Origin: Cyanobacterium sp. Dongsha4
Lineage (GTDB): Bacteria > Cyanobacteriota > Cyanobacteriia > Cyanobacteriales > Cyanobacteriaceae
DNA length: 64,000 bases
NCBI RefSeq assembly: GCF_036345015.1
Contig: NZ_CP084098.1
Location: 2,431,326-2,495,325 of the forward strand
Direction: 5' to 3'
The notes under the pieces were generated by a model, which did not search any database, was not told the DNA's origin, and saw nothing but the letters and a program-made list of their open reading frames with translations. Position numbers and translations under genes: made by a program. Positions 7,327-46,462 of the stretch are shown here, one piece after another (positions within the stretch are counted from its first letter, which is position 1; each line of letters begins with the position of its first letter).

Positions 7327-7836
7327 AAAACTATTTTAATAGAGATAGACAAAAAAGCCAGAGGTTTGCTGTTACTATCTTATAGTCACTACTTGTCACC
7401 ATGTGTTTAGCTCCCGATATGAGTTTTATTCCCTTTCCCCAAGTTTTAAGAGAAATACCATAAACAATAATAAATAAACAAATATTAAATCTTTATAAAG
7501 GACACTTTACAGAAACTAGGAAAAATGTAAAAATAGATACAGAAATAAAAAATAAATCTCTTTGAAAATCAAGTTCTAAAAAAAATGCACTTTATAGGTT
7601 GTAGATTACAATCGTTAGCCTTTGAAAGTAATAACCTTAAACACAATAAAAAATAAGGTGAATATTTAAGAGAATGATGGTCAATGATTAATCTATACCG
7701 AAATTAAATGAAGTCATAATTTTGCTAAGAAGAATAATGATAAACAGAGAGATAAACAATAAACATAATTAAGTGGAATCTATTTAATTTCGACCTCATA
7801 AGAATCTTATTTATTATCACCAGAGGAGTTAAGAGA
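7327..7836. other. 510-bp AT-rich spacer, no gene recognised
   Basis: No convincing coding region. A 20-codon ATG frame at 7401-7463 (starting MCLAPDMSF) has no ribosome site and no family match I know. The sequence is otherwise A-rich and low in complexity. The last 30 bp contain AGAGGAG (7822-7828), the ribosome site of the downstream DUF4278 gene. Confidence 0.5.
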
Positions 7837-8232
7837 GTGAATATGAAATATCGTGGAAATGTCTATAAATCAGAAAACAACTTTTTGGAAGTAAAAGAAA
7901 CTGATATAGTTGGTGGTAAATATCGTGGTTGTCAGTGGAATCATAAATTACCTAGACACGTAACACAGCTAAGACCCAAATTAGGTCTTCAATATCGTGG
8001 TGTAAGTTATTGTAGTAATCCCACAATGTCTAACTCCGTTGACAGCAATATCAATGTCGCCGCAATAAGTAATGAAACAAGAAAGACAATAGTTTGCGAA
8101 AAGATACATAGTGTCCATCTTGAAAATATGCGTCGTAATTTAGAGAAAAGAATCAAAGCCGCTCAAGAGGAAAATAATGAGACACTGTTATTAATGTTGA
8201 AAAAAGAAAGCCTTGAGTTGGAGTTAGTTTAA
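7837..8232 (+). CDS. DUF4278 domain protein
   Basis: A small cyanobacterial protein with the DUF4278 signature: KYRGNVY at the N-terminus, VGGKYRGCQW around residue 27-36, and the repeated LQYRGVSY near 51-58. The domain covers about residues 3-60. The C-terminal half (NMRRNLEKRIKAAQEEN) is charged and probably a coiled coil. The start is ambiguous. GTG 7837 has GGAG 8 nt upstream; ATG 7843 has AGAGAG 5 nt upstream; the two differ by two residues. A strong terminator follows at 8297-8338. Family function is unknown. Confidence 0.8.
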   Translation: MNMKYRGNVYKSENNFLEVKETDIVGGKYRGCQWNHKLPRHVTQLRPKLGLQYRGVSYCSNPTMSNSVDSNINVAAISNETRKTIVCEKIHSVHLENMRRNLEKRIKAAQEENNETLLLMLKKESLELELV

Positions 8233-8296
8233 TTGCTTACAGTTTAGAAAAAATCTCAAACTCGTAATTTTTCTGTTGTACATAACTCTTAAACCA

Positions 8297-8338
8297 AAAC
8301 TGATTGACTTCTAATTGTGGAGTTGGTCAGTTTTTTTT
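8297..8338 (+). terminator. Rho-independent terminator after the DUF4278 gene
   Basis: A 12-bp stem is formed by AAACTGATTGAC (8297-8308) and GTTGGTCAGTTT (8322-8333), with a few G-T pairs and a 13-nt loop. A run of eight T begins inside the stem's 3' end at 8331. It lies 65 bp after the DUF4278 stop and before the lipoprotein pseudogene, so it should end that transcript. Confidence 0.8.
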
Positions 8339-8393
8339 ATTTCATGATTGATTTACAATAAATAACCAAATAATATTATTTTAGTTCTCAGTC

Positions 8394-8758
8394 ATGAATT
8401 TAATTAAGCGCAGTTTATATTTAATTTCTCTAACTTTTTTTTTTGGGGAATAACAGGATGTACTAATTTAATTAATTGGGGTATCGCCTTTCCTCAAATA
8501 CAAGAAATTACTCAAATTAAAAACGAAACTAATTTAACCCAATCGGTAATCATACAAGGAAAAATTGAAAAATCAATTCCTCTACTCAATTCCTATGCTT
8601 ATAAAATTAAGGATGAAACTGGTTCAATATGGGTTGTTACACCTAGTCAGAAATTTGGGCAAGGGGAAGATGTAACGATACAAGGTCAACTAAAATATAG
8701 AGATATTACTATTGAAGATAAAGATTGGGGAGAATTTTACGTCGTGGCAGATAATTAA
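8394..8758 (+). pseudogene. OB-fold lipoprotein gene broken at a T10 tract
   Basis: From ATG 8394 the frame reads MNLIKRSLYLISLTFFF and stops at 8451-8453. One extra base in the run of ten T (8435-8444) restores a frame that is open to the stop at 8756-8758. It would give a lipoprotein signal with lipobox ITGC, then about 100 residues with an OB-fold look: SVIIQGKIEKSIPLL, YAYKIKDETGSIWVV and EDVTIQGQLKYRDI. No ATG, GTG or TTG exists in the second frame before the conserved region, so the protein needs a shift, slippage or a sequencing correction. The intact downstream frame argues against old decay. Strand and gene boundaries are clear; function is unknown. Confidence 0.75.
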
Positions 8759-8776
8759 ACCTTTTTTGAACGACTG

Positions 8777-8868
8777 TTTATACTTAACCTAAATTCAATG
8801 AAAAAAGTATTGAAAAATCAAACCTGAAACCTACTGATTAGAAGATATGGTTATATCAAACTGAGGTT
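8777..8868. repeat. Possible short MITE-like repeat
   Basis: TAACCTAAATTCAA near 8777 and, inverted, TCAAACTGAGGTTA near 8853-8866 match at about 10 of 14 positions. Both resemble the ends of the dispersed family seen at 17773-17972. The interior has 7-bp-period ACCTGAA-like sequence. Weak, degraded copy. Confidence 0.3.
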
Positions 8869-8914
8869 AGATCAATTTAACCGCATTTTCTGTCAATAAT
8901 AAATACTTTTTGCC

Positions 8915-9250
8915 TAATATCAAGTTCGGATAATTAGTTATAAATAACGTCTCTGGTTTTTGCCCACCAATGATAACAAGTTAAACCTTTGATTAATTCT
9001 TGTTGTTTCATTCGCTTTTGACAACGATATATCAATAAATTTTCTAACTCGTCTAAATTATCTGGAGATTGATTCGCTATTACTTCATCCAATAATCGCC
9101 ATAACCCTCTTTTGTCAAACTCCGCAAACACTTGCAATTTATAGATTATGGAACTTAAGTCAATATGATTGACTAGAGTTACTTTTTTGTCATTGTCATT
9201 GAATAGATGCAACTATTTTAATTATAAGTTATCATCCGAACTTGATATTA
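8915..9250. mobile_element. 336-bp element with 29-bp terminal inverted repeats
   Basis: The left end (8915-8943) and right end (9222-9250) are inverted copies matching at 26 of 29 positions; the outer 17 bases, TAATATCAAGTTCGGAT, are identical. Both ends begin with TA, which would fit a TA target duplication of the IS630/Tc1 type. The ends enclose a single 92-aa gene (8934-9212), whose stop codon lies inside the left repeat. There is no transposase, so if mobile it is non-autonomous. The AGTTCGG-ATAA core is shared with ends of the dispersed repeat family elsewhere in the window. Confidence 0.6.
8934..9212 (-). CDS. Unknown 92-aa protein inside an inverted-repeat element
   Basis: Not recognised. 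The protein has a mixed charged and hydrophobic composition with protein-like segments (AEFDKRGLWRLLDEVIANQS, then LDELENLLIYRCQKRM), probably all-helical, and no signal or membrane segment. It fills nearly all the space between the two inverted repeats of the 8915-9250 element, and its TAA stop at 8934-8936 lies in the left repeat. That arrangement suggests either a passenger gene or a coding sequence that evolved within the element. No obvious ribosome site precedes the ATG. It could be a small regulator or an antitoxin-like protein, but nothing in the sequence proves this. Confidence 0.5.
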   Translation of the reverse strand: MHLFNDNDKKVTLVNHIDLSSIIYKLQVFAEFDKRGLWRLLDEVIANQSPDNLDELENLLIYRCQKRMKQQELIKGLTCYHWWAKTRDVIYN

Positions 9251-9371
9251 GAAGAAAATCAATCAACATAAGTTTTCTGTAAATTATTATGACTTTTTAC
9301 GAATTTCCTCTTCTCTTTTCCCTATCATCACCAGACAATTTTATATAGAGTTCAGGTCAAGTTAAGTATTA

Positions 9372-10202
9372 TTAACGGAAAGAAAAAGCAGTATTGTGAG
9401 GAGTATTTCCCAAAGCGTCGCTAAGTTGAGAATGAATATAACCGTTAGTGGCTAATATTCTACCACTATCCAAATCGAACTCAGAGCCATCATAGGCAGT
9501 GACAAATCCTCCTGCCTCTTTAACTATTACAACCCCTGCTAATAAATCCCAAGGTTTTAATCCCCTTTCCCAATAACCATCAAGTCGGCCTGTGGCTACA
9601 TCACATAAATCTAAGGATGCACTTCCTCCTCTCCTTACCCCCTGAGTTAAATGAGTCAAATAACAAAATTCTGCATAGTTATTATCTTCTGTTTCTCTAC
9701 GATCATAAGCAAAGCCTGTTACTAATAAACTATTTGTTAAGTTATTTGTTCTCGAAACCCTAATTGGTGCATGATTCAATGTTGCCCCTAAACCATCAGC
9801 TCCACTCCATAACTCTTCACGAATGGGATTATATACAACTCCCACTAAGGGTTTTCCTGAAGCCAGTAAGCCAATGGAAACGGCCGCTTGAGGATAACCA
9901 TGAGCGTAATTTGTTGTACCATCAAGAGGATCTATTACCCACAAATATTCACTTTCTTGGATGCCAATTGTGCCTGATTCTTCGGCAAGAATACCATGAT
10001 CAGGATAATGTCTTTTTATGACACTTAATACTTTTTCTTCAGATTTTTGATCTACTTCTGTAATTAAGTCTCCAGACCTACCTTTTTCCCTAATATCTAA
10101 TTGTTTACCCCAATATTGTTTTAAAATAGCTCCTCCTTCTTGGGCGGCTAAAATAGCAATATCAAGAAGTTTTTGTTTGTTAAGATTTGAAGATTCGCTC
10201 AT
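9372..10202 (-). CDS. suhB: Inositol monophosphatase family protein
   Basis: A Mg2+-dependent phosphatase of the IMPase/SuhB family; 276 aa, cytosolic. Metal-binding residues are visible: Glu74 (ILAEES), Asp91 and Asp94 (WVIDPLDGTTNYAHG) and Asp219 (GLKPWDLLAG). The family hydrolyses inositol 1-phosphate and, in some cyanobacteria, related sugar phosphates or fructose bisphosphate, so the exact substrate is uncertain. The gene is monocistronic between repeat-rich spacers. The 9300-9365 spacer downstream contains another degraded copy of the dispersed right-end motif (GAGTTCAGGTCAA). Confidence 0.9.
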   Translation of the reverse strand: MSESSNLNKQKLLDIAILAAQEGGAILKQYWGKQLDIREKGRSGDLITEVDQKSEEKVLSVIKRHYPDHGILAEESGTIGIQESEYLWVIDPLDGTTNYAHGYPQAAVSIGLLASGKPLVGVVYNPIREELWSGADGLGATLNHAPIRVSRTNNLTNSLLVTGFAYDRRETEDNNYAEFCYLTHLTQGVRRGGSASLDLCDVATGRLDGYWERGLKPWDLLAGVVIVKEAGGFVTAYDGSEFDLDSGRILATNGYIHSQLSDALGNTPHNTAFSFR

Positions 10203-16532: not shown

Positions 16533-17684
16533 ATGAACCATTCTGTAAGTAGTACTAAAAGCCCCTTAAATTTAATTCAGTGGCTCGAATATCATTGGGC
16601 GACTCCTGCTTATGGGGGATGGGTTTTAATCGGTATTGCTTTAAGTTTTTTCGGGGCGGCAACCAACACGATGGCAGGATGGCTTTATGTTTTGAGCGGA
16701 ATGCTACTTTCTTTGTTGGGATTGAATTTTGTTGTGGCAATTAATACTCTCAAAAAATTGCAGATTAAACGTTTAGCGATCGCATCTGTTCATGCAGGAG
16801 ATGAATTAACCCTTTCTTTAAAGATTAATAATCCTACGCAAAAAAACAAAACTTTAATCACCATTTTAGAACACATCCCCCCCTCATTGGGCAAAGAAAT
16901 AAAACATAATATTGAAACTCTGCCATCTGGACAAGAAATACTTTTAACAGCTTATTTACAGACAAATAATAGAGGTATTTATCATTGGGATTATCTTAGT
17001 TTAAGAACCGCCGCCCCCTTTGGTTTATTTTATTGTAGTCGTTACTCTCAAGTTAAGACAAGTGCGATCGTTTATCCCCATATTCTCACCTTACAAAACT
17101 GTCCTTTGATTGATAACTTAGGTCAAGAAGAAGCCAGAAAAAGAGAAAGCAATCAAATATATAATAATGCCACAGAAGGAGTGACAAAGGCTTTAAGACA
17201 ATATCGTTATGGAGACCCTATTCGCTTAATTCATTGGCGTACAAGCGCTCGTTTAGGAGAATTACAAGTAAGAGAGTTAGAAACCATTACAGGAGGCGAA
17301 GAAATTACAATCTGTTTAGATAACTCTGGAGAATGGGATAAACAAGATTTTGAAAATGCAGTTATAGCAGTTGCGTCAATGTATTGTTACGCCAGTCGTC
17401 AACAACTAGAAGTTAAAGTATGGATAGGGGATATGGGATTGATTCATGGAAGAAAAGTCACCCTCGAAACTCTAGCAGGAGTCAACTATGGAGGTACGAT
17501 GAAAGATAATATTCCCCAATTACCTTTAATTTGGATTTCTCACAACTCTAATTACCTAAACTCTTTACCTTTAGGAAGTCGTTATTTTCTATTTAACAAA
17601 GATATTGTTTCCTCTTCTCTCAAGGGTATAATTTATGATTCCGAAACCAGTTTAATCAGTCAATTACAAAAACCTTTACAATAG
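16533..17684 (+). CDS. DUF58 domain membrane protein
   Basis: 383 aa. Two adjacent membrane segments (about 28-48 and 50-70) are followed by a long cytoplasmic part. The DUF58 signature RQYRYGDPIRLIHWRTSARL lies near residues 222-241 and continues into GELQVREL, leading into a von Willebrand-like region (ITICLDNSGEW). In other bacteria DUF58 proteins often pair with MoxR ATPases and transglutaminase-like proteins; neither is next to it here. The hairpin at 17704-17720 lies just after its stop. Confidence 0.9.
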   Translation: MNHSVSSTKSPLNLIQWLEYHWATPAYGGWVLIGIALSFFGAATNTMAGWLYVLSGMLLSLLGLNFVVAINTLKKLQIKRLAIASVHAGDELTLSLKINNPTQKNKTLITILEHIPPSLGKEIKHNIETLPSGQEILLTAYLQTNNRGIYHWDYLSLRTAAPFGLFYCSRYSQVKTSAIVYPHILTLQNCPLIDNLGQEEARKRESNQIYNNATEGVTKALRQYRYGDPIRLIHWRTSARLGELQVRELETITGGEEITICLDNSGEWDKQDFENAVIAVASMYCYASRQQLEVKVWIGDMGLIHGRKVTLETLAGVNYGGTMKDNIPQLPLIWISHNSNYLNSLPLGSRYFLFNKDIVSSSLKGIIYDSETSLISQLQKPLQ

Positions 17685-17723: not shown

Positions 17724-17772
17724 ACAGTAAAAAACAATATTTTTAGAAAAAATTTAATATTTTTAAAATAAC

Positions 17773-17972
17773 TGACCTCAGTTCGGTTTAAGAATATCGG
17801 GTAAGTGTCAGGTTGTTGGGGTATTAGGGGGAAACAAGTAATGAGTTAGGAGTTAGGAGTTAAGAGTTAGAAGTTATTAATTATCAACTATTTACCTTTG
17901 CCCCTTGCCCTTTGCCCTTTGCCCTTTTCTCCATCACTCATGGATAAAAATTTATCCCGAACTCAGGTTAAC
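17773..17972. repeat. Complete copy of dispersed MITE-like repeat, 200 bp
   Basis: Left end TGACCTCAGTTCGGTTTAAG and inverted right end TTAACCTGAGTTCGGGATAA form imperfect terminal inverted repeats. The interior holds 7-bp-period stretches (GTTAGGA units near 17840 and TGCCCTT units near 17898-17925) and the core TTATCAACTATTTACC also found at 26780, 29617 and 55168. It ends 10 bp before the stop codon of the TerB-like gene. This is the clearest full-length member in the window. Confidence 0.7.
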
Positions 17973-46431: not shown

Positions 46432-46462
46432 AGATGAAAATTTATCCCGAACTTAGGTTAAT
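46432..46462. repeat. Dispersed repeat, right-end copy
   Basis: TTTATCCCGAACTTAGGTTA matches the right end at 17951-17970 with one change. The upstream 46345-46430 contains GTGTCGGGGTGTTGG and GTGCTAGGG tracts like the interior of other copies. It lies in the 229-bp gap before the ABC exporter. Confidence 0.65.

Follow-up and report, generated by a model that had tools for sequence, protein, structure and literature searches.

The window, i.e. the whole 64,000-nucleotide stretch of Cyanobacterium sp. Dongsha4 DNA that was analysed, harbors at positions 8918-9247 a 330-bp element bounded by an inverted repeat. Alignment of 8915-8943 with 9222-9250 revealed arms that pair in inverted orientation at 26 of 29 positions, with the 3-bp flanks TAA and TTA counted in; an earlier note, made by a model from the DNA letters and a list of their open reading frames, had described ends of just this length and agreement. 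Wider arms were also computed (8907-8947 and 9218-9258, 83%). Within the window, a 24-bp stretch of the left arm matched one other place at up to 3 mismatches, namely the right arm; not one of 100 shuffles contained a match, and the inverted repeat is therefore not a product of chance. The TA at the outer edges is likewise present as claimed, and so is the single small ORF enclosed by the arms, with its stop within the left repeat. The features of the locus are as follows.

8915-8917, no strand: left flank TAA, a TNA-type target position; the full-length relatives mostly have equal TNA on both sides
8918-9247, minus strand: whole element, 330 bp, TATC...GATA, almost certainly an internally deleted IS630-family relic
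8915-8943, plus strand: left inverted-repeat arm together with its 3-bp flank; 3' end of the IS (26/29 vs. the right arm)
9222-9250, minus strand: right inverted-repeat arm together with its 3-bp flank; 5' end of the IS (26/29 vs. the left arm)
9156-9247, minus strand: 5' part of the IS, i.e. its end, the leader and the first transposase codons (KKVTLVNHIDL); 88 of 94 aligned columns to L003
9102-9155, minus strand: 54 bp from one end of an unrelated MITE with the end sequence CCCTCTTTTGTC, encoding ORF residues 20-37; 49 of 54 to L010
8918-9101, minus strand: 3' part of the IS, i.e. the transposase C-terminus and the end; 171 of 177 to L002 over 8918-9094, with protein matches to transposase C-termini
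8934-9212, minus strand: 92-aa chimeric read-through ORF with a TTG start, its composition determined by alignment
9191-9193, minus strand: the ATG best matching the native transposase start, in another frame than the ORF and reading MTKK then stop (start of the full-length relative L079: MPKTVTVESHL)
9248-9250, no strand: right flank TTA, unequal to the left TAA

The earlier note had also read AGTTCGG-ATAA as common to the element ends and other repeats of the window, and this reading did not hold up, with 3 matches at up to 1 mismatch vs. 1.62 expected and 3 or more in 20 of 100 shuffles. The two exact matches, at 17952 and 46442, are set in different sequence and are followed by AACTCAGGTTAA and AACTTAGGTTAA. 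A separate repeat occupies 17771-17970 of the window, with ends AACTGACCTCAGTTCGG..CCGAACTCAGGTTAACT, and a similar single end is found at 46442 (46442-46453); these are probably the source of the remark, and the repeat looks unrelated to the element at 8918-9247.

Three-part composition of the element and its ORF

Searching the strain's own genome (4,320,404 bases, 5 contigs) with a 352-bp query around the element, we found 17 matching places, among which only the window's own copy is full length. L002 corresponds to the left 180 bp of the element at 97% identity, and L003 to its right 102-105 bp at 93%, continuing into transposase sequence; weaker matches to the two ends were found at L011 (79%) and L012 (83%), 8 places (L004-L010 and L013) match only 50-56 bp from the middle of the element, and the remaining matches are cross-matches between both arms. 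In coding (minus-strand) orientation, the element begins with the 5' end of the IS at positions 1-92 (partial copy L003: 94%, 88/94 columns), continues with 54 bp from the end of an unrelated MITE at 93-146 (L010: 91%, 49/54) and closes with the 3' end of the IS at 147-330, of which 154-330 are 97% identical to the partial copy L002 (171/177). An Rfam search over 8700-9400 gave no matches. The element does not itself have the features of a MITE, for which several similar full copies per genome and an equal target duplication on both sides are expected: it has one full copy in its own genome, with TAA on the left and TTA on the right.

Among the places that match the middle of the element, L004, L005 and L007-L010 belong to a separate element of ~230 bp that has CCCTCTTTTGTC-type sequence at either end, with a mismatch at one end in L009 (flanks read by eye). 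Copies of this MITE family are scattered over the strain's own genome, and genome G010 and other relatives also have matches to the family's end.

Recognizing this three-part DNA composition, we conclude that the ORF is a transposase N-terminus, a MITE scrap and a transposase C-terminus read through: residues 9-19 (KKVTLVNHIDL) are the N-terminal end, residues 20-37 the MITE end and residues 38-92 the C-terminal end. L003 runs from KKVTLVNHIDL into PELYKKYRCSNNPISRSHYHIIWL.., a continuation with matches in related genomes to IS630-type transposases, in their N-terminal part. From about residue 36 onward, the ORF matches IS630-type C-termini in 18 of 60 genomes at E<=0.001 (own genome included, a few rows being the MITE part) and in at least 78 of 388 genomes at E<=1e-8 (own genome included), with up to 71% identity outside the own genome among the matches listed in both searches; among the same matches, residues 1-17 have no match besides the window itself. 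The TTG start is located in the leader, 19 bp upstream of the native-type ATG and in a different frame. The Pfam search with the ORF yielded no family at E<=10, and the sole NCBIfam match, IcmW (E 0.077, 13.2 bits vs. a cut-off of 100), was discarded as chance. In a contig scan with the 92-aa ORF, 62 stretches fit a pattern and none was confirmed by tblastn, the peptide patterns including the chimeric parts; tblastn of the ORF in plasmids gave 8 records, none of them spanning 80% of the query. We infer that the ORF is an accidental read-through without function, and its 92-residue product is most likely a broken fragment rather than a new passenger gene.

Full-length relatives and their target sites

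Related cyanobacteria harbor full-length relatives of ~1.14-1.17 kb with an IS630/DDE_3 transposase and ends of the same kind, including five copies of 1171 bp in genome G051 and seven copies of 1159-1160 bp in G001. Together with L079 of G094 and the copies of G202, these share with the window element the TATCAA(G/A)TYCG-type ends on both sides and a transposase C-terminus that aligns with the window ORF; they differ from it in length and in having the transposase gene, most of which is gone from the 330-bp element, and the flanks of the latter are unequal. L079 (1159 bp, flanks TAA/TAA) is a full-length member with the same terminal inverted repeats, its left end being identical to the left arm of the window over 26 bp and its right end having 1 mismatch to the right arm. 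The end variants of L079 are swapped relative to the gene, i.e. its 5' end equals the 3' arm of the window, and the two 5' ends agree at 27 of 30 positions.

The transposase gene is split between two frames in L079 and in the copies of G051 and G001, whereas some G202 copies have it open (373-375 aa). The first ORFs of the relatives comprise HTH_33 and HTH_29 and the second ORFs DDE_3 (PF13358); the second ORFs pass NF033545 (IS630 family transposase) with 126 and 135.8 bits vs. a cut-off of 100, and the first ORFs alone stay below it (87.9 and 77 bits). The window ORF belongs with these transposases by descent only, as its C-terminus aligns with the NF033545/PF13358 ORFs and the ORF itself has no passing family match. 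A full-length parent of the element's subgroup was not found in the strain's own genome, where the N-terminal part was left out as a query, and the deletion is therefore not readable against an own parent.

More distant is ISAva6 (IS630-like, Trichormus variabilis ATCC 29413 plasmid A, per record annotation), whose transposase C-terminus is 39.3% identical to residues 37-92 and whose candidate ends would have TAA on both sides in one of several tied registers, a weak likeness; it differs in the end sequence, TACTGAATAGGG in that tied register, and in its undivided ORF of 1089 bp. Relatives also carry short MITE-like elements (L126, 149 bp; L136, 102 bp; L137, 91 bp) with like ends of the TATCA.. 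type and equal TNA flanks, which are shorter than the window element and differ from it in that the latter retains both transposase ends and the foreign MITE scrap. At the threshold used, both ends lie within 500 bp in 7 of 20 fetched stretches, with equal 3-bp flanks in 6 of these 7, and such short like-ended elements occur in the family of the window and beyond.

In one 8.8-Mb genome (G304), the end pattern TNA-TATCAWGTYCGG at up to 2 mismatches had 382 forward and 375 reverse matches vs. 0 and 1 for a control pattern, which is a large expansion of elements with ends of this type.

The full copies of the TATC..GATA type are flanked by equal 3-bp TNA, with all four bases occurring at N, in 18 of 20 cases, namely 11 of the 12 copies of G051 and G001 (L061-L072; L073 duplicates L068 and was counted once) and, in G202, 7 of 8 pairs. 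For G202, T-N-A was part of the search pattern itself, at up to 2 mismatches overall, so that the independent evidence there is limited to N being equal on both sides; 28 of 33 ends were used, five with 2 mismatches being omitted, and ends on opposite strands 1100-1200 bp apart were paired, giving 8 pairs from 16 ends, while the like-end pattern matches of seven other genomes were left unpaired. A looser set started from 46 loci, 45 of which gave a tblastn row, and 16 copies with both ends at 12/16 or better and 1100-1300 bp apart were taken; 12 of these have equal 3-bp flanks and 4 unequal ones. This set overlaps the others in L045, L052 and L092, and the unequal L046 looks like a decoy repeat pair.

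The two exceptions in the 20-copy set have TTA/TAA and TCA/TGA, which are reverse complements of each other, and once L046 is put aside, the three unequal copies of the looser set also have reverse-complement flanks, as does the window with TAA/TTA. Such flanks would be explained most simply by exchange between copies that differ in place or orientation. The reading of the TA edges as a TA duplication was thus not borne out, in that this IS group duplicates 3-bp TNA and the flanks of the window are unequal. A passage of one source has the whole IS630-Tc1-mariner group using a TA target (PMC8533490), and TAA and TAAA are reported for Fot and Fot-like pogo elements in an excerpt of another (PMC7386202). 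In the literature searched, with ISfinder outside the search, we recognised no description of TNA duplication in cyanobacterial IS630.

Origin of the element and alternative readings

Our data indicate, with little room for doubt, that 8918-9247 is an IS630-family relic with both ends and a MITE scrap, dead or at most movable in trans; its ORF is most probably non-functional. We surmise that a full IS of ~1.15 kb, with ends TATCAAGTTCGGAT.. and an HTH + DDE_3 transposase, was once present at this locus or at a source site, and that a MITE of another family inserted in the transposase gene, as judged by the junction at the Leu-Trp codons after the PAER motif. This motif lies just before the retained part and presumably holds the third catalytic residue. 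A later deletion would have extended from inside the MITE to about the 13th transposase codon, with loss of ~0.9 kb of the IS, an estimate based on the length of the full relatives, and of most of the MITE. The remainder would comprise both IS ends, ~13 N-terminal codons, 54 bp of the MITE and the last 55 codons, joined by chance in such a way that a 92-codon frame with a TTG start, which we take as functionless, stayed open. Both the order of these events and the size of the loss are reconstructed from the parts that are left. Several points speak against the relic reading: 1) the 92-codon frame is open throughout, with both transposase pieces in their original frame, and the proposed events need not keep either; 2) there is no own-genome parent; 3) the end variants of L079 are swapped; 4) no empty site is shown.

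The description of the element as non-autonomous, of IS630 type and without a transposase was right. Its further reading as carrying a captured or evolved passenger gene while remaining mobile in trans through an IS630 transposase is in our view very improbable. The good preservation of both ends speaks for it, as do the short elements of the relatives, whose equal TNA flanks imply that such ends moved in some genomes; but the ORF consists of the IS's own transposase ends and the MITE end rather than of cargo from outside mobile elements, the flanks are unequal, and a second copy of the whole unit was found neither in the own genome nor among the matches listed for 60 and 388 genomes (the DNA search of the 60 genomes scoring mostly 11 candidates per genome). 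With residues 9-19 and 38-92 being transposase and 20-37 MITE, a gene in the course of being mobilised finds no support either. As to the two observations that the earlier note had named as telling against its proposal, the ends do bound just one full element in the own genome, and the C-terminal part does have many homologues, but these lie within full transposases.

Marginally less credible still is a domesticated transposase fragment, whose 92-aa product would be kept, e.g., to regulate related IS elements. A frame open over both junctions would suit such a product, but only ~11 residues of the N-terminal region are kept, so that the HTH domains of the parent ORFs are absent, and the DDE_3 region is kept only beyond the PAER motif. 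Neither the lack of a Pfam match and of an NCBIfam match above cut-off nor the presence of a single copy fits with domestication, and the window and L002 differ in five codons of their common part, none of them synonymously, a comparison of one pair that is too small for a test.

Returning to the IS630-family relic, we noticed that gene order relative to G001, the nearest relative and the one genome of the same genus in the set, breaks between 8770 and 9372, and for this reason no empty site is readable against G001. This genome is probably that of Cyanobacterium aponinum PCC 10605, as the transposase match at G001 C2:17293-17442 corresponds to 17299-17439 on a plasmid of PCC 10605. The left stretch, 7701-8770, matches G001 C1:2574245-2575317, and the right neighbour, a 276-aa ORF at 9372-10202, has a 98% identical protein match at G001 C1:608646-609476, i.e. 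the two neighbours of the element are ~2 Mb apart in G001. An exchange between copies, in either of the two genomes and perhaps through this element, would suit this separation, but the stretch is intergenic and rich in repeats. Tentatively, we speculate that the cyanobacterial IS630 elements of the TATC..GATA type may have left the TA rule and duplicate TNA, that their unequal copies may reflect exchange that moved chromosome segments, and that the relic in the window might mark such a breakpoint, a proposal that we regard as possible rather than probable.

The element itself is ordinary. What had been noticed at this locus was observed correctly, and it is an IS630-family relic with an internal deletion, a piece of a second mobile element and a spurious ORF; a false small gene is thereby removed from the list. 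One IS and one MITE can together yield a cargo-like open frame between good inverted repeats, which is a trap for gene finders. The consistent 3-bp TNA, seen in an IS630-family group for which TA specificity is the usual description, as in a passage of PMC8533490, would merit mention in an IS catalogue unless it is already listed.
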